DNA of 64,000 nucleotides from Spirosoma fluviale (GTDB lineage Bacteria > Bacteroidota > Bacteroidia > Cytophagales > Spirosomataceae). Below the pieces are notes generated by a model. That model did not search any database, was not told the DNA's origin, and saw nothing but the letters and a program-made list of their open reading frames with translations. This document shows, one piece after another, positions 39,427 to 63,284 of the stretch (position 1 is the first letter of the stretch; each line of letters opens with the position of its first letter). The stretch lies in the NCBI GenBank assembly GCA_945901025.1, contig CAMDJW010000015.1, forward strand, positions 1 to 64,000, in the 5' to 3' direction. A program made the translations under genes and the position numbers.

Positions 39427-42306
39427 TTACGCGTTTTCCACGTAGCTCGAAATCGGCTCGCAAGCACAAACCAAATTACGATCTCCATAAGCTGAGTCTA
39501 TTCTAGAGACGGTTGGCCAGAATTTTGCCGACTTCACATATGGCAAAGGAAATACCGCTTTTTCTCTTGAATAAGGGCGATTCCACTCACCGATTAAAAC
39601 AATGTTTTGCGTATGCGGTGCATTTTTCAACACATTATTTAGTTTGTCGGCGCTTCCATTTTCCACTTCTCTAATTTCTTCCCGGATACTCAATAAGGCA
39701 TCACAAAAACGATCTAATTCGTCTTTGTTTTCTGATTCTGTCGGTTCGATCATCAGCGTGCCAGCCACTGGAAATGATAGGGTAGGAGCATGGAAACCAT
39801 AATCCATTAAACGTTTCGCAATGTCTTCAGCCTCTACGCCAGCAGAAATTTTAAAGGGTCTGCAATCGACAATCATCTCATGCGCGCAACGGCCTTGAGA
39901 ACCTGTATATAGAATTGGGAATTCTTTTTCCAATCGTGCTTTGATATAATTAGCATTTAAAATCGCTGTTTCCGTAGCCCTTGTCAATCCTTCTCCTCCC
40001 ATCATGGCAATGTATGCGTATGAGATCGCTAAAATACTGGCAGATCCTACTGGCGCAGCTGAAACTGCTCCATGCGATTCTGCAGCAACAGAATCAGTCA
40101 TTACGTGACCAGGTAAAAATGGGACTAATTGTTTCGCGACGCCAATGGGCCCCATTCCAGGTCCACCCCCTCCGTGAGGAATACAAAAAGTCTTATGTAA
40201 ATTTAAGTGACATACATCGGCACCGATCGTCGATGGGGATGTTAATCCCACCTGAGCATTCATATTAGCACCATCCATGTACACTTGTCCGCCAAAATCA
40301 TGAATCATTTGGCAAATTTCCTGAATGGCTTCTTCAAACACCCCATGGGTACTCGGATATGTGACCATTAAACAGGCCAAATTATCTTTGTGCTCTTCCG
40401 CCTTGGCGCGTAAGTCGGCCATATCGATGTTGCCATGGGCATCACAGGAAGTTACGACCACTTTCATGCCCGCCATCACGGCCGAGGCTGGATTTGTTCC
40501 ATGTGCCGAGGAAGGAATTAAAGCAATATTTCGATGCGAATCACCTCTCGAAGCATGATAAGCACGGATTACCATTAAACCCGCATACTCACCTTGGGCT
40601 CCTGAGTTTGGTTGCATCGACATGGCCGCAAAACGGGTAATTTCACATAGCCAATCGTTTAATTCCATGATTAATCGTTGGTACCCTCGCGTCTGATCCC
40701 CCGGTGCAAATGGATGAATTTTTCCAAGTTCAGGCCAAGTCACAGGAATCATTTCAGTCGTCGCATTCAATTTCATCGTACATGAACCTAAGGAAATCAT
40801 GGAATGCACCATGGATAAATCTTTGGATTCTAAGGACTTTAAATAACGCAACATTCCATGTTCGGAATGGTATTTATGAAATACTTCATGTGTCATGAAT
40901 GAGCTCTTACGAGTCAAAGAAGCAGGAATTTGCCAAGCGACCGTTAATTCATCCCCTCCGATGCCATGGTTTTTGGCTCTTTGGAAAAAGGCTAAAATAG
41001 CGACCACCTCATCTTCTGAACTTGTTTCGTCAAGGTTGATGCTCAATTTACTTGGGTCATTTTTAAAGTACCTAAAGTTTCTTTGGGCTTCCTCCGCATA
41101 GGCTCTAATTTCTTCCGTTAACTCTCCTGTCTGAACAGTTAGGGTGTCAAAATGCTGAGTATTCTCTAGGGTAAAGCCTAATTTTTTAAGTCCGGCGGCC
41201 AACAATTCCGTCAATCCATACATTTTTCCAGCGATATTTTTCAATCCTTCTGGTCCATGGTAAATGGCATAGGCTGCTGCCATGATGGATAAAAGTACTT
41301 GGGCCGTACAAATATTGGAAGTCGCTTTTTCTCTACGAATATGTTGTTCGCGGGTTTGCAAGGCCATTCTTAAGGCACGATTTCCTTCTGAATCTACGGA
41401 AACCCCAATGATCCTTCCCGGAATACTTCTCTTGTATTTTTCTTTTGTGGCAAAAAATGCGGCATGCGGTCCACCAAATCCCATAGGAACTCCAAATCGT
41501 TGGGAACAACCCACCACGACATCAGCGCCCCATTCTCCCGGAGGAGTTAATAAAGTAAGAGCTAAAAGATCCGCCGCTACGACCACTTGGACATCGTTTT
41601 CTTTCGCTGCTTCCACTAAATTTTTATAATCAAACACTTCGCCATTGGCCGCAGGATATTGCAATAACATTCCAAAAAATTTCGTGTCTGTTACATCGAT
41701 GGCTTGATGATTCCCGACAATAATTTCAATGCCGATAGGTTCAGCACGGGTTTTTAATAGGTCGATCGTTTGAGGTAAACAAAGGGAAGAAACAAAAAAT
41801 GCATCACCCTTATCGGATGATTTTTGACCAAACAACATCGTCATCGCTTCTGCGGCAGCTGTTCCTTCGTCGAGCAAAGAGGCATTAGCTAATTCCATGC
41901 CAGTCAGGTCGATGATCAATGTTTGGTAGTTCAATAACATCTCTAACCTTCCTTGCGCAATTTCCGCTTGGTAGGGGGTGTAAGCTGTATACCATGCCGG
42001 ATTTTCTAAAATATTTCTCAGAATAACCGTGGGTGTAATCGTGTCATAATAGCCTAAACCTATGTGACTTTTAAATATCTTATTTTGCCCCATGATTTGT
42101 TTAAAATCCCGTAAAAACTCAAACTCAGTTTTAGGATTTGGTAAACGTAATTCACGTTCCAAACGGATTTTAGCAGGGACAGTTTGATCGATGAGTGTCG
42201 CAAGACTATTGACTCCAATAGTTTTTAACATCGCATCTAAATCCTTAGGATTTGAATTATTATGTCTCAATGAAAAATCTTCTCGGTATTTGAAATTTGG
42301 GTGCAT
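39427..42306 (-). CDS. gcvP: Glycine dehydrogenase (decarboxylating), P-protein
   Basis: PLP-dependent decarboxylase of the glycine cleavage system. The protein (959 residues) is a full-length single-chain P-protein: both halves are present, with the PLP lysine in [20 protein letters not shown] near residue 703 and the N-terminal half with [18 protein letters not shown]. The frame opens at TTG 42342, but ATG 42306 ([16 protein letters not shown]) gives the usual start and length. gcvT and gcvH are not in the window. The glycine that the operon at 53604-59510 may produce could be consumed here. Confidence 0.96.
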
Positions 42307-42339
42307 AGTTGATTGCGGGAATTTTGTTGAAAAACTTGA

Positions 42340-42347
42340 CAAAAATA
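42340..42347 (-). promoter_or_regulatory. Possible -7 promoter element of gcvP
   Basis: On the minus strand this reads TATTTTTG, an exact TAnnTTTG match 33 bases before the chosen ATG of gcvP. The alternative TTG start would overlap it, which supports the ATG. No clear -33 element. Confidence 0.4.
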
Positions 42348-53118: not shown

Positions 53119-53451
53119 TTAAAGGAAATCATCACGCCGAGGGCTGAATACGTCAATTAATTCACCCTCCTCCAAGCATACCGCCCCATGAATCTCGCCA
53201 GTGGGGACAAAATACACATCGCCAGCCTCTAAAATCGATTTCTCTGAACCTATGGTAATTTCGAATTTGCCTTTTGAAACATAGGATGCTTGCGTATGCG
53301 GATGGTGGTGTAAGGTTCCAATGGCATGTTGGTCAAAACCCACTTTTACGATCATCATGGATTCATTTTGTGCCATTACTTTCCTTCTTATTCCGTCTCC
53401 TAATTCGATCCAATCCACCAATGCGTCCTCTATGAGTTTTTCTGATTTCAT
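53119..53451 (-). CDS. Cupin-domain protein
   Basis: A 110-residue single cupin. It shows HHHPHTQASYVSKGKFEITIG and a second motif GDVYFVPTGEIHGAVCLEEGE, giving the usual metal-binding histidines. Such small cupins are metal-dependent enzymes (for example KdgF-like) or ligand sensors; there is no DNA-binding domain. It is divergent from the permease gene of the glutamylation operon at a distance of about 150 bases, which may link the two. Confidence 0.85.
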   Translation of the reverse strand: MKSEKLIEDALVDWIELGDGIRRKVMAQNESMMIVKVGFDQHAIGTLHHHPHTQASYVSKGKFEITIGSEKSILEAGDVYFVPTGEIHGAVCLEEGELIDVFSPRRDDFL

Positions 53452-53603: not shown

Positions 53604-54947
53604 ATGCAAGATAATTCAAGCGAAAGTGACAATCAAGCACATTTGAAAAAAGTACTTAGTCCTTTAATGTTATGGGGACTCGGGGTAGGTTATGTCATTT
53701 CCGGCATGTATTTCGGTTGGAATTTAGGTTTAAAAGAGGGCGGAACGCTGGGTTTGGCCATTGCCACTGGCATTGTCATTGTGCTTTATGCTTGCTTTAG
53801 TTTCTCCTATGCGGAATTAGCTTGTGCTATTCCAAAGGCTGGTGGGGTTTTTGATTATGCCAATAAAGCCTTTGGGGATCATGTAGGATTCATGGCAGGC
53901 ATCGCCCAAATGATCGAATTTATTTTTGCACCGCCCGCTATTGCCTTTGGAATTGGTGCCTATTTTAATCTATTTTTCCCTGATATACCCATCCTTTGGA
54001 TTTCCTTATCGGCCTATTTTATCTTCACCGCTTTAAATATATATGGGGTAAAAGCCGCGGCAACTTTTGAATTATGGATTACCATCATTGCTGTGGTGGA
54101 AATTTTAATTTTTGCGGGGGTTACCTTGCCCCATTTCAAATGGGCCAATATGCAGCAAAATGCATGGCCTAATGGTTGGTTTGGTGTTATTGCCGCTTTA
54201 CCCTTTGCCATTTGGTTTTTCTTGGGCATTGAGGGATTGGCCAATGTAGCCGAAGAGGCAAAAAATCCTCAAAAAGATATTCAACGAGGTTTTGGTTCTG
54301 CATTGTTCACCCTAGTGATTTTATGTGTGTTGGTATTTGTCGCTGCCATTGGGGTAGGGGGTTGGGAAGCGATTGTTTTTAAAAATGGCCTATCCGGTGA
54401 AACCTCAGACTCGCCGCTTCCATTAGCCATGGGTCAAATTGTGGGCGCTAATTCTTTGCTTTTTCATTTACTGCTGACCGTGGGTCTTTTTGGTTTAATT
54501 GCTTCTTTTCATGGATTGATTTTGGCGGCGGGTAGATCTACTTATGAGTTTGGTTTTAAAGGTTTTGCTCCTCGTTTTTTAGGAAAATTACATCCTAGAT
54601 TTTTGACGCCAACCAACGCCCTTTTGTTCAATATGGGAATTGGTATTCTGGCATTATTGACCAATAAAACAGCCGAAATTATTACGATTTCCGTGATGGG
54701 AGCTTTGACGCTTTATTTTATCGCCATGCTTTCATTGCTTCGCTTGCGTAAAAATGAACCGCATTTACCCCGACCTTTCTCCGTACCACTGTACCCTTGG
54801 ACGCCGATTTGCTCCTTAATTATTTCTGGAGGAGCGTTCGTTCTAATCGCGTACAATAATTCAAATTTGTTTTTTATTTATGCAGGGATCATCCAAATTT
54901 GCTTCCTTCTATTTAAATTGTTTGTTCCAAAAAAACCTGTTTTATGA
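53604..54947 (+). CDS. Ethanolamine permease-type amino acid transporter
   Basis: Inner-membrane APC-superfamily transporter, 447 residues, about 12 helices. The start LMLWGLGVGYVISGMYFGWN followed by LKEGGTLGLAIATG is characteristic of the ethanolamine permease subfamily. It is the first gene of five tightly packed genes; its stop overlaps the ligase gene by 4 bases (ATGATGA). The second-half motifs NVAEEAKNPQKDIQRG and AAGRSTYEFG are usual for the family. A TACTTTTG at 53595-53602 sits just 1 base before the ATG and cannot act as the promoter of this start. Confidence 0.85.
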   Translation: MQDNSSESDNQAHLKKVLSPLMLWGLGVGYVISGMYFGWNLGLKEGGTLGLAIATGIVIVLYACFSFSYAELACAIPKAGGVFDYANKAFGDHVGFMAGIAQMIEFIFAPPAIAFGIGAYFNLFFPDIPILWISLSAYFIFTALNIYGVKAAATFELWITIIAVVEILIFAGVTLPHFKWANMQQNAWPNGWFGVIAALPFAIWFFLGIEGLANVAEEAKNPQKDIQRGFGSALFTLVILCVLVFVAAIGVGGWEAIVFKNGLSGETSDSPLPLAMGQIVGANSLLFHLLLTVGLFGLIASFHGLILAAGRSTYEFGFKGFAPRFLGKLHPRFLTPTNALLFNMGIGILALLTNKTAEIITISVMGALTLYFIAMLSLLRLRKNEPHLPRPFSVPLYPWTPICSLIISGGAFVLIAYNNSNLFFIYAGIIQICFLLFKLFVPKKPVL

Positions 54948-56302
54948 TGACTGAAAATCAAATCCTTGATTATGTGCGGGAGCATCCAGACCAACGAGTT
55001 AAAGTCGCGTTGGTGGATATTGATGGTGTTTTAAGAGGAAAGTACATTAGCACCGATAAGTTTTTGTCCGTGGTCCAATCTGAAATGGGATTTTGTAACG
55101 TGGTCTTTGGTTGGGACATGGCCGATGTGGCCTACGAAAATTCTCAGTATACGGGTTGGCATTCTGGTTATCCAGACGCCCCAGCCCGCATAAATTTGTC
55201 TTCCTTTCGAATGATTTCTTGGGAAAATAATGTCCCCTTTTTCCTCTGTGAATTAATGGATTCACCGAAAAATAGCGCGGCTGTTTGTCCCCGAAATGTA
55301 TTGAAAAAGGTGATTACCCAAGCGCAAAATGCGGGATTTGTGCCTTTCTTTAGTCAAGAGTTTGAGTGGTTTAATTTTGAAGAAACACCGGCATCTGTCC
55401 ACGATAAAAATTTCCAAAACCTAAAGCCATTGAGCCCAGGGATGTTTGGTTACTCCATTTTAAGAAGCACATTGCGCAACGATTTTTTTAACTCTTTATT
55501 TTCAGATTTAAGTTCATTTGGGATACCCTTAGAAGGTTTGCATACCGAAACGGGTCCTGGAGTTTATGAAGCTGCGATCGCTTATTCCGGTATTTTGGAG
55601 GCAGCAGATCGGGCTGTTTTGTTCAAGTCATCTGTGAAAGAGTTGGCCTACAAACAAGGAATCATGGCCACTTTTATGGCTAAATGGGATGAGAATTTAC
55701 CCGGTTGTAGTGGTCATGTGCACCAAAGTCTTTGGGACAAAGAGGCAGCTAAAAATTTATTTTTTGATGAAAAAGATGCGCAGGGAATGAGTCAAACCAT
55801 GCGGCATTATATCGCAGGCCAACTACATTGTTTGCCTGTCATCTTACCATTGTTGGCCCCCACCATCAATTCATATAAGCGATTAGTAGAAGGTGCCTGG
55901 GCTCCCACTACTTTAACATGGGCCGTCGACAATCGAACCGTTGCTTTGCGCGCATTGCCCGGTAGTAAAAAAGCAACCCGACTAGAAACTCGGGTTGTGG
56001 GTTCAGATGTGAATCCCTATTTAGCCATGGCCGCATGTTTAGCCAGTGGCTTGTACGGAATAAAACATCAATTAGCTTTGCAAGAACCGACGGTAGGAAA
56101 TGGATATGCAGATGAGTCGCACGGTCGATTACCGGGAAATTTGCAAAAGGCCACAGAGGCCATGAAGCATTCGCCGATTGCCCAGGAATTATTTGGTGAA
56201 GCGTTTGTAAGCCATTTTGTGGCTTCTAGGGAATGGGAATGGCAGCAGTATGGCCGAGTAGTCAGTGATTGGGAAAAAAGAAGGTATTTTGAAATAATTT
56301 AA
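54944..56302 (+). CDS. Glutamine-synthetase-family gamma-glutamyl-amine ligase
   Basis: ATP-dependent ligase of 452 residues with a glutamine synthetase fold. It has the beta-grasp start (KVALVDIDGVLRGKYIS) and the catalytic-domain blocks ETGPGVYEAAI, GCSGHVHQSLWD, WAPTTLTWAVDNRTVALR, and RLETRVVGSDVNPYLAMAA. In true glutamine synthetase the corresponding segment is GSGMHVHQS and RIEFR. The sequence and context place it with the GlnA-like enzymes that glutamylate amines (PuuA, IpuC, Streptomyces GlnA4), which add L-glutamate to the amino group of the substrate. It follows the ethanolamine-type permease, so ethanolamine is the most likely substrate. Confidence 0.86.
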   Translation: MMTENQILDYVREHPDQRVKVALVDIDGVLRGKYISTDKFLSVVQSEMGFCNVVFGWDMADVAYENSQYTGWHSGYPDAPARINLSSFRMISWENNVPFFLCELMDSPKNSAAVCPRNVLKKVITQAQNAGFVPFFSQEFEWFNFEETPASVHDKNFQNLKPLSPGMFGYSILRSTLRNDFFNSLFSDLSSFGIPLEGLHTETGPGVYEAAIAYSGILEAADRAVLFKSSVKELAYKQGIMATFMAKWDENLPGCSGHVHQSLWDKEAAKNLFFDEKDAQGMSQTMRHYIAGQLHCLPVILPLLAPTINSYKRLVEGAWAPTTLTWAVDNRTVALRALPGSKKATRLETRVVGSDVNPYLAMAACLASGLYGIKHQLALQEPTVGNGYADESHGRLPGNLQKATEAMKHSPIAQELFGEAFVSHFVASREWEWQQYGRVVSDWEKRRYFEII

Positions 56303-56303
56303 G

Positions 56304-57452
56304 ATGGATTTTAATCAAGTAAGACAATTTAATTTCCCAACCATCATTCGGTTTGGGGCTGGTGCCGTAAAAGAATTAGCACCCTATTTAAAAAATCAGG
56401 GTTTCTCAAAACCGTTGATCGTTACCGATCCGGTGATTGCGGAACTCCCGTTTTTCAAAAACATTTGTGCCGATTTACGAGGTGCTGGGGTCTCAGTGGA
56501 AGTATTTTCTGCGATTCATAAAAATCCGGTTAAGTCAGATGTGTATGCCGGAACGGCTGTTTGGGATGCCACTCATCGCGATTGTTTGATCGGAATTGGC
56601 GGTGGTGCGGCTTTGGATGTGGCTAGGGCGATTGTACTCCAAGTAAATCATCGGGAGGATTTGTTTGTCTATGATGATTTGATTGGTGGAGATGTCTATG
56701 TGACCAACGATGTGCCGCATTTTATCACGATACCAACCACCTCAGGAACCGGAAGTGAGGTAGGTCGATCCGCCATCATTGCGGATGATGAAACGCATCA
56801 AAAAAAGATTTTATTTTCCCCCAAGCTATTAGCGAAAATTGTTTTTGCTGATCCGCTCTTGACCATGGAATTACCTGCTTTTGTTACGGCAGCTACGGGA
56901 ATGGATGCTTTGACTCATAATATGGAGGCTTATTTGGCCAAGAATTATCATCCCATGTGTGATGGAATTGCCTTAGAGGGAATGCGCTTAGTCGCTGAAT
57001 CTTTAGTGGATGCGGTACGTCAGCCGGATTTAAATGCTAGGTCCAAAATGTTGTTAGCCTCCATGATGGGTGCCATCGCATTCCAAAAAGGTTTAGGGGT
57101 GGTTCATTCATTAGCTCACCCGCTTTCTTCTTTATTAGATACGCACCATGGTTTAGCCAATGCGGTCAATATCCCGTATGGTATGCGATTTAACATCGCG
57201 GGATTTGAAGATCGTTTTGCTCGCATGGCCCAAACACTGGGATTGAAGTCGGAATCCGGGGAGTCGGTGGTTCAATATCTTTTTGACTTGAATTCACAAG
57301 TAGGCATCCCTCACCGACTAAGAGAAATTCAGGTGAAAGAGGAACATTTAGACACCTTGGCGGCTTTGGCTTTCGCAGATTTTGCACATCCCAATAACCC
57401 TAAGCCTGTATCCCAAGCAGATTTTAGAGCGTTGTATGCAGAGGCTTTATAG
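56304..57452 (+). CDS. Iron-containing alcohol dehydrogenase
   Basis: A 382-residue class III (Fe-type) alcohol dehydrogenase. It has the cofactor motif GIGGGAALDVARAI, TIPTTSGTGSEVGRSAI, and the metal site: Asp and His in ATGMDALTHNMEAY and the histidines in VVHSLAHPLSSLLDTHHGLANA. It starts 1 base after the ligase stop. In this setting it would oxidise the free hydroxyl of gamma-glutamyl-ethanolamide to the aldehyde. Confidence 0.9.
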   Translation: MDFNQVRQFNFPTIIRFGAGAVKELAPYLKNQGFSKPLIVTDPVIAELPFFKNICADLRGAGVSVEVFSAIHKNPVKSDVYAGTAVWDATHRDCLIGIGGGAALDVARAIVLQVNHREDLFVYDDLIGGDVYVTNDVPHFITIPTTSGTGSEVGRSAIIADDETHQKKILFSPKLLAKIVFADPLLTMELPAFVTAATGMDALTHNMEAYLAKNYHPMCDGIALEGMRLVAESLVDAVRQPDLNARSKMLLASMMGAIAFQKGLGVVHSLAHPLSSLLDTHHGLANAVNIPYGMRFNIAGFEDRFARMAQTLGLKSESGESVVQYLFDLNSQVGIPHRLREIQVKEEHLDTLAALAFADFAHPNNPKPVSQADFRALYAEAL

Positions 57453-57455
57453 GAT

Positions 57456-58142
57456 ATGAAACGAATTGGAATTACCACTTCTGATACAAACTTTCAAAAT
57501 TATCCAAATTGGATTGCTGGTGAAGGGGTGGAAATTATACAACTTTCATATACAGAAAAAAACACACAGGATTTCGATTCTTGCGATGGTTTTGTATTGA
57601 CTGGGGGCATCGATGTACATCCGCAATTTTACCAAAATGCAAGGGTAGATTACCCTAACACGACCGTATTTAGTGAGGCGCGGGATCTTTTTGAAATTCA
57701 AGTTTTTGAATTTGCGCGCCAACAAAATAAACCGGTGTTGGCTATTTGCCGTGGGTTGCAATTGGTCAATATTGCTTTAGGTGGAAACTTAATTCAGGAC
57801 CTTCAGGAAAATGGTTTTGAAAATCATAGAAAAGGTTCTGAGGGGGATAGAGAACACAAAATCGAGGTCAAACCGGGAACATTGTTGGCACAAATTTCTG
57901 GGGTCCAACACGGTTTTGTGAATTCAGCTCATCACCAGGGCTTAGACCAAATCGCTGATGAACTTAACGTTTCTGCTTTTTCAGAAGACGGGGTCGTCGA
58001 GGCGATTGAATATAAGGATGCCAATAAACCGTTTTTATTAGCCGTTCAGTGGCATCCGGAGCGGATGCAAATACCGGCTACCAACGTAGCTTTTTCTCAA
58101 AATATACGCAGCGCTTTTATGGAAGCCATGCTTAAAAATTAA
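57456..58142 (+). CDS. Gamma-glutamyl amide hydrolase, class I glutamine amidotransferase (PuuD-like)
   Basis: A 228-residue hydrolase of the peptidase C26 family. The nucleophile is Cys98 in AICRGLQLVNIALGG, and the histidine-glutamate pair is in AVQWHPERM near residue 205. It lacks any synthetase or ammonia-channel partner, as in PuuD, which removes the gamma-glutamyl group from glutamyl-GABA. It begins 3 bases after the dehydrogenase gene and 0 bases before the aldehyde dehydrogenase, so it would release the final product and recycle glutamate. Confidence 0.88.
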   Translation: MKRIGITTSDTNFQNYPNWIAGEGVEIIQLSYTEKNTQDFDSCDGFVLTGGIDVHPQFYQNARVDYPNTTVFSEARDLFEIQVFEFARQQNKPVLAICRGLQLVNIALGGNLIQDLQENGFENHRKGSEGDREHKIEVKPGTLLAQISGVQHGFVNSAHHQGLDQIADELNVSAFSEDGVVEAIEYKDANKPFLLAVQWHPERMQIPATNVAFSQNIRSAFMEAMLKN

Positions 58143-59510
58143 ATGATGAATATTATCAATCCCGCCACAGAAGAAATTATCACCACAATCCAAGAGGACA
58201 ACGAGACTAGTTTGTCATTGAAAATGGAACGATTAAAAAAATCTGCCAAACAATGGGCAGCTGTTCCGGTTCAAACCCGAGCGGAAATTCTGGAGAAATT
58301 TGTGTCTTTACTCAAGGAAAACATCGAAGAGCTAGCGGCTATTTTGACGTCAGAAATGGGCAAGCCCTTGCAACAAAGTAGAAATGAAATCAATGGCGCT
58401 GGGGCAAAGGCTACGTGGTTAGCGCAACACGCGACCCAATATTTGTCGGAGGAAATCATGTCGGTTTCTGATCAGATGACAGAAAAAATTGTGCATGAGC
58501 CTTTGGGCATTATCTGCAATATCTCGGCCTGGAATTATCCCTATAATGTAGGAGTCAATATTTTTGTACCTGCATTGTTGGCGGGAAATGCAGTCATGTA
58601 CAAACCTTCTGAATATGCCACTTTAACAGGGATTCAGATAGGAAAGTATTTGGTGGAGGCAGGTGTGCCGGAGGATGTATTCCAAGTGGCCATTGGGGAG
58701 GGAGAAGTAGGCAGGGCTTTATTAGACATGCCTTTTAATGGATATTATTTTACAGGATCGTATCAAACTGGTCAAAAAATTTATCAGCAGGTGGCCAAAA
58801 AAATGGTTCCATGCGTGCTCGAATTAGGAGGAAAAGATCCTGTTTATGTAGCGGATGATGTGGTGGATGTGGCAGGAGCTGCGGCTGGTATTGCGGATGG
58901 TGCCTTTTATAACAATGGACAAAGTTGTTGTTCTGTGGAGCGCATTTATGTGCAATCTGCAATATATGATGTATTTGTGGAGGCTTTTGTGGCTGAAGTT
59001 AACTCGTGGAAAATGGGCTCGCCTACGGAGGATGGTGTTTATATTACTGTGCTAAGCCGCGGGGCCCAACTGGAAGTTCTTGAAAATCAAGTGGCTGATG
59101 CGGTTGCCAAGGGAGCGCAGGTTTTAGTAGGAGGGAAGCGTGTAAACCAAAAGGGTCATTATTTCGAACCTACCGTTCTTGTCAATGTAACCCATGAAAT
59201 GGCGGTGATGCGAGAAGAAAGTTTTGGTCCCATCATTGGAATCATGCGCGTTGAACATGACGCGGAGGCGGTTGCTTTGATGAATGATACGGATTATGGC
59301 TTAACGGCTGGTGTTTATTCAGCGAGCCAACAAAGAGCTGAAACCATGTTAGCACAAATAGATGCAGGATCTGGATATTGGAATTGTTGTGATCGGGTGA
59401 GTGCTGCTTTGCCTTGGAGTGGTCGTGGTCACTCGGGTTTTGGCTCTACACTTTCTGAGGTGGGTTTGAGGGCCTTTACAAAACCTAAGGCCTATCATTT
59501 AAGAAAATAA
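58143..59510 (+). CDS. NAD(P)-dependent aldehyde dehydrogenase
   Basis: A 455-residue aldehyde dehydrogenase. The catalytic cysteine is in NNGQSCCSVERIYV (about residue 262), the general-base glutamate in LELGGKDP (about 228), and the cofactor region FTGSYQTGQKI is intact. It would oxidise the gamma-glutamyl-aminoacetaldehyde to gamma-glutamyl-glycine. It begins immediately after the hydrolase stop and is the last gene of the operon; a hairpin follows at 59512. Confidence 0.92.
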   Translation: MMNIINPATEEIITTIQEDNETSLSLKMERLKKSAKQWAAVPVQTRAEILEKFVSLLKENIEELAAILTSEMGKPLQQSRNEINGAGAKATWLAQHATQYLSEEIMSVSDQMTEKIVHEPLGIICNISAWNYPYNVGVNIFVPALLAGNAVMYKPSEYATLTGIQIGKYLVEAGVPEDVFQVAIGEGEVGRALLDMPFNGYYFTGSYQTGQKIYQQVAKKMVPCVLELGGKDPVYVADDVVDVAGAAAGIADGAFYNNGQSCCSVERIYVQSAIYDVFVEAFVAEVNSWKMGSPTEDGVYITVLSRGAQLEVLENQVADAVAKGAQVLVGGKRVNQKGHYFEPTVLVNVTHEMAVMREESFGPIIGIMRVEHDAEAVALMNDTDYGLTAGVYSASQQRAETMLAQIDAGSGYWNCCDRVSAALPWSGRGHSGFGSTLSEVGLRAFTKPKAYHLRK

Positions 59511-59541
59511 AAAAGAACGTGAGAATTCTCCCACGTTCTTT
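59506..59541 (-). terminator. Terminator of the haem c protein gene (minus strand), also close to the operon end
   Basis: AAAGAACGTG (59512-59521) pairs with CACGTTCTTT (59532-59541). On the minus strand the stem is followed by a T-rich tail. On the plus strand only ATCATCC precedes T-rich sequence, so it would act weakly for the aldehyde dehydrogenase gene. Confidence 0.75.
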
Positions 59542-59553
59542 ATCATCCATTTT

Positions 59554-61473
59554 TTATTTCTGTGCGTTAATCCAAGCCGCTAGTTTTTTAACATCGGCTC
59601 TAGGGAGATGGCTCATTGGGGGCATAGGCGTTGCAAAATCAGGCCAATTCGATGGCTTAGGCGCAATGATTAACGCTTCAATTTGCGCATTGGTATAATT
59701 TCGTTTCGCCACTTCTGTGTAAGCTGGACCCACTGCTCTTTCTTTGACTTTATGGCAAGCTAAGCACGTGTGTTTCGTCAAAAGTGCTTGCGCTTCTTTA
59801 TCTGAAATGATTTGTGTTTTGGTGATTTTGGGACCTGCTTCTTTGGTTTGATTATCAGGAGTATTGGCTTCTTTACCCGCATCTATTTTCTCTTTGGCCG
59901 CTTTAGGTTTTGGAGTTACTAATGGAATATTTGCTTTCGATCCATTGGGAATCGTGTTCAACGTATAAAAAGCTGAACCATGCAAAAGTGGTAATGCCTC
60001 CGTATTGGATAGTATTCCCTCTGGCTTGATGGTGTGAATGTAACCTTCTCTAAGGCCGTCCACAACAATTCGAACTTTAAGTCCATCTTCTGAAACTTGC
60101 GCACCGCGAACAGGATTTTCTTTTTGGTTGACCATCGGGCTTCCATACACGGGATGATATTTATAGATGTAGCTACTGACATCATAGTTGTTTACATCGG
60201 CGGCCAATTTTTTATTGACCGGTAGCGTAAACTCAATTTCAAATCCATCGGGCATTGCACGAACGGCTTTCATTTCAAAAGGAGTTTTTCCTGAGTAGAC
60301 CAATCGTTCTAAGCCAAAATCTTCTTTTCCAATGGAACCCCAACCGCGATTCGTGCCTCCTACAAACAGGTTTTTGTCAGATCCAAAGGCCATTCTAAGC
60401 ACTCCAGACCTAAATCCAGATACAAATTCAAAAGAGGCACCTTGGAATCGGCCATTCACTTTTTCCAAAAATACCCGAGCAATTTTTGACATTCCTTGGT
60501 CGCCAACAAACAATTGGCCCGAGAATGGTCCAAAAGCACCATTGGTTTCATCCGGAATAATTTCAGAGGTCGATATGCCTAGCACGCCATGCGGCAACCA
60601 AACAGCCGGTGATTTAATACCAAGATTTGGAAGTGATTTGCCCATTTCATAAATGGTGGTCATTGGCTTAGCCTCATTTTCTACATGTTCAGGTTTAACG
60701 AGCGGGTTATCTCTTGGGTCTACTTTTTCAAAAACCATTTCTTTTCTCATTTTCACCGGAGACTCTGGTCGGTCTGCCCACTTTAAAGAGGCAGGATGTC
60801 CCATGAAATTTCCTTTTTCGATGTGTGAAATGAACCCTGAACCCTGCCAATCTCCTTGGTTATCGCCATAGAATAATTCTCCATTGATCATACCAAGACC
60901 ACAGGGTGAGCGCATTCCAGCAGCAAACGGTTCCATTTTTCCGTCGGGGCTAATTTTCATTGCCCAGCCACGCCATGGAACGAGTGATTTTCCTGCCCAC
61001 CAATCGGTGTTACCAAAACCCACGTTACCTGTTACGTAAAATGAGCCGTCTGGACCCACCTTAGGTCCGTAGGAATATTCATGGTAATGACCAGAAATAG
61101 GCCATGAGTAAACGGTTTCATAGCGTTCTGCTTTTCCATCTCCATTTTTGTCGACCAATCTTGTCAACTCTCCCCTTTGTGCACAATACAAGAAACCATC
61201 TAAATAGGTTAATCCTAAAATTTCATGCAAGCCTGATGCGAATTTTCTGAAATTTGGACGTGGACTCGATGGGTTTTCGATGATGTAAACATCCCCTCTT
61301 CTGGTGGAAACGGCTATATCGCCGTTGGGTAAAAGCGCTAAACCACCCACTTCCAAAACTAAACCTTCGGGCGCTGGGATGCGCGCGATTTTGTAATAGT
61401 CGCTCTCAGTAGGGTTTTGAGCGAAAGTCATCGTTGAGATGACCAATAATAAGATTACATATATATTTTTCAT
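59554..61473 (-). CDS. Exported beta-propeller protein with C-terminal cytochrome c domain
   Basis: A 639-residue exported protein. It has a signal peptide (MKNIYVILLLVISTMTFAQ), a propeller-like region of about 400 residues related to PQQ/sugar dehydrogenase-like proteins (LVLEVGGLALLPNGDIAVSTRRGD, GLTYLDGFLYCAQRGELTRLVDKNGDGKAERYE), a linker rich in Lys/Pro/Ala, and a C-terminal haem c domain with CLACH and a methionine ligand region MPPMSHLP. The frame opens at TTG 61497, which overlaps the DUF1080 gene; ATG 61473 is chosen. It follows the DUF1080 gene by 17 bases. It could be a periplasmic or outer-membrane oxidoreductase. Confidence 0.85.
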   Translation of the reverse strand: MKNIYVILLLVISTMTFAQNPTESDYYKIARIPAPEGLVLEVGGLALLPNGDIAVSTRRGDVYIIENPSSPRPNFRKFASGLHEILGLTYLDGFLYCAQRGELTRLVDKNGDGKAERYETVYSWPISGHYHEYSYGPKVGPDGSFYVTGNVGFGNTDWWAGKSLVPWRGWAMKISPDGKMEPFAAGMRSPCGLGMINGELFYGDNQGDWQGSGFISHIEKGNFMGHPASLKWADRPESPVKMRKEMVFEKVDPRDNPLVKPEHVENEAKPMTTIYEMGKSLPNLGIKSPAVWLPHGVLGISTSEIIPDETNGAFGPFSGQLFVGDQGMSKIARVFLEKVNGRFQGASFEFVSGFRSGVLRMAFGSDKNLFVGGTNRGWGSIGKEDFGLERLVYSGKTPFEMKAVRAMPDGFEIEFTLPVNKKLAADVNNYDVSSYIYKYHPVYGSPMVNQKENPVRGAQVSEDGLKVRIVVDGLREGYIHTIKPEGILSNTEALPLLHGSAFYTLNTIPNGSKANIPLVTPKPKAAKEKIDAGKEANTPDNQTKEAGPKITKTQIISDKEAQALLTKHTCLACHKVKERAVGPAYTEVAKRNYTNAQIEALIIAPKPSNWPDFATPMPPMSHLPRADVKKLAAWINAQK

Positions 61474-61490
61474 TTCTTTAAATTCTATGG

Positions 61491-63284
61491 TTACCAAAGG
61501 ATTGAATATTGTACTTTTTCTGTGGCCGGAAGCGTCAAAACTTTATTGAATCCACTGCCTTCAATACTTGCGCCAACGGCCTTAATGTAATAGGATTTGC
61601 CATCTAAGGCATATAAGTTATCCCCCATTTCTTTAATTTCTGAAGACATTCCTATTCTAATTTTTTGTCCCGCTGCAGGATTTTTTATATTGATATTTCT
61701 TTCTAAATATTTATGATCGATGATGCGGATTTTGTCTTCCACATCAGATCCATATATTTCATATAGAAAGGTCGGTAGATCTTGGTCATCCATTACATAT
61801 CCTTTTGTTTTGAAATTAGCAGCAGGATCGGGTTGATTCTCAAGAGAAATTAGGTTTTGAACCATGAGAGGTACATTAGGTAGATATAGAACCGCACCTC
61901 TTGGCCTTGAAGAACCATCACCTCGGCTATCCCACATCGGTGTCGTATTTAAAAAATCACCTTTCCAGATTTGGGCGATCGAGCCATTTTCCAAATCGTA
62001 GGTATAATGTAAGTTGGAAGGATTACCTACGTTGACAGCATGCGCCATTCTTCTACCTCTTTTTCCGTTTTTCATCAAGTCGACAAATGACCTGAAAACA
62101 ATCGGTTCTTTGGCGTCCAATAAAATAGGGTCGTCGGAAGAGGATCCCAAATAGGAGCCCAAACTATGGTAGGCCGTTGTTCTGAATTCGGGGCCTTTGA
62201 CCCAAAATCCTAGTTTATTTCCTACACTCTTTTTTGTTTTTATGAGGGTGATTTGAAGGTCAACTTTCCCTTCGGGTAGGTCAATAACTTCTGTTTTGCG
62301 GCGGTTATTTTCCTCATTTTCTTCCTTGAAAATTTCTTTGCCATTGATGGTAATCCAATGTTTTCCTGCAATTTCAAATTCGATTTGATGCTTGCCTGCT
62401 TTCGGTATATTTAAGCTTGTTTTAAATATTTCGGCGTAATGAAAAGGCTTGGAGCTTACGTCCCAAGTTAATTTTTCGGAAACTCCACTCACATCTGGTT
62501 TTTTAGAAATAAACTCTTGGATGGATTTGAAATTGCCATAATATACTTGATAGTTTACTGGCCCCATAGTGGCAGGGATTGAACCTAAATCGGTTACTGT
62601 TAAATTACGAAAAGCGACAGCACCATGGTCACCTTGAATCATGAAAGGCCCTTTTGCTACCTCTATTTCTGAAATAGGACCGCCTGTTGGCCCCGTTAAT
62701 TCCACATTTTCATGAATGATCATGCCGTTCAATTTGACCGAAATTACTTTGGCATTTGCGATTTTTTTCCCTTGTGCATCGAATCGAGGTGCTTGGAATG
62801 ACACTTCCATTTTTTGCCAAAGTCCAGGTGAGAGACATGCGTTGACTCTTGGGGCATGTCCTTCGTATAAATATTCTTTGGGATTAAATTTTCTTCGCTT
62901 ATAAATACCTCCACAGTCTCCGGTATTTGGGTTTTTTACACCCCAAGAATCCATGAGTTGGAGTTCATAGCGACCTTGAAGATAAAAGCCAGAGTTTGAA
63001 TGTGTCGCCATCATAAATTCGAAGGTGGCATCAAAATCCCCATATTCTTTGTTGGAGACCAAATTTGATCTATTTTCTTTATTGGGCAAATTGACTAATA
63101 TTCCGCTACCCGGTTCTATGCTTAAGACTTCCGGTTTATTGAGGTCGGCTTGGGCATCGGATGCGATTTGCCAATTATTTTTTCCTGTGTTCTTCCAAAA
63201 AGAGAGGTCAGAAAATGAAATGGGACTTTGTGCATGAATGGCAAATGGGAGTAAGAGGACGAAGGTCCACCGTAATTTTTTCAT
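61491..63284 (-). CDS. Exported DUF1080 protein (3-keto-disaccharide hydrolase-like domain)
   Basis: A 597-residue exported protein with a signal peptide (about 1-18, ending AIHAQSP). Residues about 20-230 form a DUF1080 concanavalin-like domain (GDFDATFEFMMATHSNSGFYLQGRYELQLMDSWG, GIYKRRKFNPKE). A PA14-like or carbohydrate-binding region follows (HQIEFEIAGKHWITINGKEIF). The C-terminal part is not recognised. DUF1080 domains are linked to 3-keto-glucoside hydrolysis in some proteins, which would fit with the haem c partner, but that is inference. Promoter candidate at 63315. Confidence 0.82.
   Translation of the reverse strand: MKKLRWTFVLLLPFAIHAQSPISFSDLSFWKNTGKNNWQIASDAQADLNKPEVLSIEPGSGILVNLPNKENRSNLVSNKEYGDFDATFEFMMATHSNSGFYLQGRYELQLMDSWGVKNPNTGDCGGIYKRRKFNPKEYLYEGHAPRVNACLSPGLWQKMEVSFQAPRFDAQGKKIANAKVISVKLNGMIIHENVELTGPTGGPISEIEVAKGPFMIQGDHGAVAFRNLTVTDLGSIPATMGPVNYQVYYGNFKSIQEFISKKPDVSGVSEKLTWDVSSKPFHYAEIFKTSLNIPKAGKHQIEFEIAGKHWITINGKEIFKEENEENNRRKTEVIDLPEGKVDLQITLIKTKKSVGNKLGFWVKGPEFRTTAYHSLGSYLGSSSDDPILLDAKEPIVFRSFVDLMKNGKRGRRMAHAVNVGNPSNLHYTYDLENGSIAQIWKGDFLNTTPMWDSRGDGSSRPRGAVLYLPNVPLMVQNLISLENQPDPAANFKTKGYVMDDQDLPTFLYEIYGSDVEDKIRIIDHKYLERNINIKNPAAGQKIRIGMSSEIKEMGDNLYALDGKSYYIKAVGASIEGSGFNKVLTLPATEKVQYSILW

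Follow-up and report, generated by a model that had tools for sequence, protein, structure and literature searches.

A five-gene operon in a 64,000-nucleotide stretch of DNA from Spirosoma fluviale (assembly GCA_945901025.1, contig CAMDJW010000015.1, positions 1 to 64,000; hereafter the window) very probably imports and degrades ethanolamine as its main substrate without adenosylcobalamin, as judged from sequence comparisons. The five open reading frames (ORFs) span 53604-59510 on the forward strand, as originally predicted, and each begins with ATG. In order, they encode a permease (53604-54947, 447 amino acids), a glutamine synthetase (GS)-like ligase (54944-56302, 452 amino acids), an Fe-type alcohol dehydrogenase (ADH; 56304-57452, 382 amino acids), a PuuD-like hydrolase (57456-58142, 228 amino acids) and an aldehyde dehydrogenase (ALDH; 58143-59510, 455 amino acids). 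The first two genes overlap by 4 bases and the gaps that follow are of 1, 3 and 0 bases.

In the proposed pathway the permease would take up ethanolamine and the ligase would use ATP to join it to glutamate, giving γ-glutamylethanolamide. The ADH would then oxidize this amide to γ-glutamyl-aminoacetaldehyde in an NAD(P)+-dependent step and the ALDH would convert the aldehyde to γ-glutamylglycine, from which the hydrolase would release glycine and recycle glutamate. Both an alcohol and an aldehyde dehydrogenase are needed for such a route and both are encoded in the operon. EutBC ethanolamine ammonia-lyase, on the other hand, uses adenosylcobalamin chemistry. The lack of eutB that had been remarked on for the window extends to the entire source assembly (2.64 Mb in 32 contigs, 98.56% complete), where the EutB family PF06751 has no match; EutC and shell proteins were not searched for separately.

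The permease, of the APC superfamily, scores 414 bits against the TIGR00908 ethanolamine permease model, above the curated cut-off of 381.75, which bears out the earlier assignment to the Eat type. Among the best 15 of 17 plasmid records matched by it, all 15 are annotated 'eat: ethanolamine permease', and the one that was opened has the gene order eutB-eutC-eat. The evidence on substrate comes from the way in which this one transporter family is split, and not from the bare absence of EutB. We searched a sample of 395 Bacteroidota genomes for the permease (E <= 1e-90), EutB and the ADH (E <= 1e-120), which were found in 19, 12 and eight genomes, respectively; four of the 12 EutB genomes have no permease at this threshold. 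The 19 permeases fall on either side of a gap in identity, eight at 43-46% and 11 at 58-100%, and EutB is present in all eight genomes of the former group and in none of the 11 of the latter. For these 19 genomes the chance of so perfect a division is 1 in 75582, uncorrected for kinship of the genomes. In seven of the eight EutB-group genomes the permease gene adjoins EutB (loci L188-L194); in the eighth, G371, the two are on separate contigs. All 11 EutB-free genomes instead carry a γ-glutamyl ligase. In eight of these, which are the eight ADH genomes of the sample, it is of the window type, and in three (G064, G158 and G190) it is of a type 33-34% identical. In G064 and G158 this second type is clustered with a short-chain dehydrogenase, an ALDH, an amidotransferase-fold protein and an Eat-type permease; G190 has its permease and its ligase on separate contigs. 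A tree of the permeases mixes both ligase-linked kinds in one clade and places the EutB-linked kind in the other (support 100/100).

Gene order and the dehydrogenases and hydrolase

A scan with the ADH gave 483 confirmed relatives, and the best 80 named loci were analysed. All five genes occur in the same order and on the same strand at 53 of the 80 (54 with L076, where a fragment of the permease lies at the end of the contig), although the distance between ligase and ADH exceeds 500 bases at two members of this set, L081 and L093. The search for this gene order in other Bacteroidota, suggested with the original prediction, thus returned a linkage that goes beyond chance. Over the 54 loci, identities to the window proteins are 60-97% for the permease, 61-97% for the ligase, 76-99% for the ADH, 40-95% for the hydrolase and 53-94% for the ALDH. 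At 18 of the 80 loci the ligase is not seen beside the ADH, and in all 18 of these genomes it is present elsewhere at 67-72% identity; all eight ADH genomes of the phylum sample likewise carry the ligase at 62% or more. Hosts among the 80 loci include Pedobacter, Emticicia, Terrimonas, Ilyomonas, Rhodocytophaga and a Leadbetterella metagenome-assembled genome (MAG). In the family of the window genome the ADH (E <= 1e-100) occurs in 33 of 200 genomes, 18 of the 33 belonging to its own genus, window included, so that even related genomes carry it patchily.

The nearest named relatives are MAGs of Cytophagales, several of them filed under other names, and are presumably of freshwater origin, going by isolate names such as lake samples. 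Near-identical relatives are labelled Spirosoma fluviale, Sphingobacterium thalpophilum, Chitinophaga pinensis and Bifidobacterium breve; such discordance indicates that the MAG labels are unreliable.

The ADH (PF00465, PF25137), the proposed γ-glutamylethanolamide dehydrogenase, is 38.8-44.2% identical to the Fe-ADHs of ligase-ALDH-FeADH operons, compared with 32.0% to FucO and 30.8% to EutG of E. coli. Its Asp201, His205, His268 and His282 align to positions of FucO that we take to be metal ligands. In the ADH tree FucO and EutG are the sole outside rows and the branches are long. A search of 72,556 plasmid records with the ADH (E <= 1e-70) gave 27 matches, the best 15 of which were considered. 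In at least 11 of the 15 the distance from the ADH to a GS-like ligase is about 2 kb or less. The others are three from Paracoccus denitrificans, whose neighbourhoods lie outside this count, and one from Mesorhizobium, in which the ADH stands with a hydrolase and an ALDH and no ligase is adjacent. Four Paracoccus plasmid records have the layout TRAP genes-ligase-ALDH-FeADH.

The hydrolase (PF07722 Peptidase_C26, 180.2 bits) has the class-I glutamine-amidotransferase fold and is the proposed γ-glutamylglycine hydrolase; its cysteine (in AICRG) and histidine and glutamate (in QWHPE) align to E. coli PuuD. The cysteine (in GQSC) and glutamate (in LELGG) of the ALDH (PF00171 Aldedh, 433.6 bits), which would act on γ-glutamyl-aminoacetaldehyde, align to E. 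coli PuuC. At two loci, L034 (8543-10642) and L111 (8154-10241), hydrolase and ALDH form a single frame of about 695-699 amino acids, possibly through sequencing error.

The ligase and its relatives

The ligase, the proposed γ-glutamylethanolamide synthetase, matches PF00120 Gln-synt_C with 328.6 bits and reaches none of the NCBIfam cut-offs for GS or GlnA. In E. coli GlnA numbering it retains Glu129, Glu131, Glu212, Glu220, His269 and His271, together with Arg321, Arg339, Arg344, Arg355, Glu357 and Arg359, which we take to be catalytic residues of glutamine synthetase. Position 327, in GlnA a glutamate that is presumably the ammonium-binding residue, is tryptophan in the window ligase and in 28 of 28 window-type rows of the alignment. 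Tryptophan occupies this position in all rows of groups A, B and C, phenylalanine in group D and both PDB rows, tyrosine in PuuA, and glutamate in GlnA only. The replacement at 327, with the scores below the GlnA cut-offs, suggests an enzyme that is GS-like but not a glutamine synthetase.

In a tree of 56 ligase rows that includes proteobacterial plasmid (P) rows, and from which ten window-type rows, two B rows and E. coli GlnA were omitted, the window type groups with Bacteroidota B and the P rows (100/99). The published type (5dm3, 11zs, L175, L182 and L185; PDB entry 5dm3 we take to be the Chromohalobacter enzyme) groups with C and D rows (100/100), and the window ligase falls outside that clade. 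Support for the window-type clade itself is 61/98 with the P rows, against 98/94 without them, which weakens our first impression of it. The window ligase is 38.9% identical to a plasmid gene product annotated ipuC (γ-glutamylisopropylamide synthetase) and 36% identical to the ethanolamine-type ligases of L053 and L054.

Plasmid relatives of the ligase at 45-49% identity have varied neighbours; a Rhizobium relative, for example, has an ALDH and a GMC oxidoreductase adjacent. Two proteobacterial plasmid clusters with ligases in the 46-48% range resemble the operon in content and differ in order: at L171 (Legionella lytica) an ALDH, an Fe-ADH and an amidotransferase annotated as GMP synthase lie beside the ligase, and at L180 (Photobacterium) an ALDH and an Fe-ADH. 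Separately, 33 genomes of the phylum sample have a ligase at 53-61% identity and no ADH match, six of them also with EutB. At 15 of 15 such loci examined (L041-L052 and L065-L067) two genes on the same strand come after that of the ligase, one for a protein of about 346 residues and the next for a HAD-IIA phosphatase (TIGR01460). The first of these partners (family c2) shows weak Pfam APH matches in four of 14 members, the best with an E value of 0.0081, and a profile search with it against the PDB gave no match.

Candidate substrates and published pathways

Several observations weigh against an assignment to ethanolamine. The absence of EutB from the 11 genomes would arise by chance with a probability of 0.71 and, taken alone, is uninformative. 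Window-type permeases are putative ethanolamine carriers, with their nearest EutB-linked relatives just 43-46% identical. In NCBIfam the Fe-ADH comes closest to the model for 4-hydroxybutyrate dehydrogenase and the ALDH to that for succinic semialdehyde dehydrogenase, both below cut-off. Plasmid relatives of the ligase at 48-49% identity lie beside spermidine/putrescine-type ABC genes and an aminotransferase, and Bacteroidota ligases of the same clade occur with other partners. Because partners vary in this way, ancestry of the ligase leaves its substrate unfixed, and it is the operon partners that decide.

We considered whether the same chemistry might act on L-alaninol, 3-aminopropanol or a similar natural amino alcohol, with ethanolamine as a minor substrate. 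Chain length is not settled by any feature of the sequence, and the ligase is about as near to the ipuC product as to the ethanolamine-type ligases. The permease assignment and the EutB-linked permease relatives nevertheless speak for ethanolamine, and the cytochrome P450 and ferredoxin genes that neighbour ipuC are missing from the operon; we regard another amino alcohol as unlikely. Catabolism of polyamines through γ-glutamylputrescine, as in the E. coli Puu pathway, is considerably less likely still. That pathway shares with the operon the ligase fold, a PuuC-like ALDH and a PuuD-like hydrolase, and the polyamine-type ABC genes beside some ligase relatives are in keeping with it. The γ-glutamylputrescine synthetase model does score 193.5 bits on the ligase, but its cut-off is 650; position 327 is tyrosine in PuuA and tryptophan here; and the permease lies outside the polyamine families. 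Puu has the oxidase PuuB and no alcohol dehydrogenase, whereas the operon has the opposite. A diamine would need a PuuB-like oxidase or an aminotransferase for the second amine, and neither was found in the five genes or the annotated ORF neighbours within about 3 kb. The presence of an ADH in their stead favours an amino alcohol over a diamine, and we set the putrescine route aside. An ordinary glutamine synthetase that merely stands next to unrelated dehydrogenases would share the PF00120 fold, and is hardly credible given the tryptophan at 327, the scores below the GlnA cut-offs and a gene order retained across genera. The source genome also has two further regions matching glutamine synthetase, so that ammonia assimilation is independent of the operon ligase, and this explanation was likewise rejected. 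Ethanolamine γ-glutamylation, as first proposed, is supported in that the logic of the operon holds, EutB is absent and the comparative evidence points to ethanolamine.

The route itself is not new. PMC10132767 cites a demonstration of ethanolamine γ-glutamylation in Chromohalobacter salexigens and Agrobacterium (Vetting et al. 2015) and describes an operon, with the layout TRAP genes-ligase-ALDH-FeADH, that is induced in Phaeobacter (MED193) grown on phosphorylethanolamine. In PMC6529630, Streptomyces GlnA4 was shown to be a γ-glutamylethanolamide synthetase and later steps to glycine and glutamate were proposed. We found no description of the route in Bacteroidota in an open-access library that misses most subscription journals.

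The Chromohalobacter, Agrobacterium and Phaeobacter operon resembles that of the window in its ligase, ALDH, dehydrogenase and inferred steps, and the Fe-ADHs of relatives with that layout are 39-44% identical to the window ADH. It differs in having a TRAP transporter in place of an Eat-type permease, an N-formylglutamate amidohydrolase in place of the C26-family hydrolase, for which γ-glutamylglycine is the proposed substrate, and a ligase of a different clade. The Streptomyces GlnA4 cluster, compared here by its gene content and products, is alike in its putative ethanolamine/amino acid permease, glutamylating ligase, ALDH and amidotransferase and in glycine and glutamate as proposed products. 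It has a short-chain dehydrogenase, where the window has an Fe-ADH, and its own repressor, EpuRI; the G064 and G158 clusters resemble its gene set. GlnA4, which had been invoked as a model for the window ligase, therefore serves as a functional analogy and not as an orthologue, the window ligase lying outside the clade of published-type ligases. Operons of the eutBC-eat ammonia-lyase type share the permease family with the window, but have no ligase and a permease of a separate clade.

These comparisons support the view that the Bacteroidota operon would be a variant of a known pathway, with the same chemistry, an Eat-type permease, a C26 hydrolase and a ligase of another branch. Whether it was assembled separately in Bacteroidota we judge to be evenly balanced. 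On that reading a GS-superfamily ligase of a different branch, the Bacteroidota sisters of which have a kinase-like protein and a HAD protein as partners, was joined with an Eat-type permease, an Fe-ADH and a C26 hydrolase, and specificity for forming the amide of ethanolamine arose at least twice.

Surroundings of the operon and significance

A small divergent gene for a cupin (53119-53451, reverse strand; Cupin_2 PF07883, 45.8 bits) adjoins the operon in nine of the 12 named loci closest to the window, whereas the remaining 68 all lack it there. It is thus limited to the genus; its membership of the system is doubtful, and we discarded it as a conserved regulator. No regulator common to several genera was seen among the 18 largest neighbour clusters of 88 loci, clusters that were not domain-searched. 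A terminator-like hairpin with a 13-pair stem (59512-59541, listed on the minus strand) follows the last gene of the operon, ahead of a convergent gene. It is weak evidence, since terminator-like sites in the region are not enriched (seven, compared with 9.7 in shuffles). Matches to σ70-like promoters in the region are also at shuffle level (16 compared with 14.2) and no promoter is claimed. Downstream on the reverse strand, reading of the sequence indicates a protein (59554-61497) that has, close to its C-terminus, a CxxCH resembling that of c-type cytochromes and a large secreted protein (61491-63284); the latter is beside the operon in seven named genus-level loci. The suggestion that glycine passes to gcvP is conceivable but gains no specific support. 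The gene is present in the window (39427-42342, reverse strand; PF02347, 631.7 bits), about 11 kb from the operon and outside it.

Ethanolamine is freed wherever membranes break down, and the operon may let the cell use the head groups of membrane lipids as a source of nitrogen and carbon. Comparable clusters would then combine one transporter family with three chemistries, in which Eat is paired with EutBC, with the window-type ligase or with the short-chain-dehydrogenase type. If the assignment is correct, ethanolamine could be open to many Bacteroidota of soil and fresh water with no need of vitamin B12 or a microcompartment, an ability concealed where the ligase is annotated as 'glutamine synthetase'.

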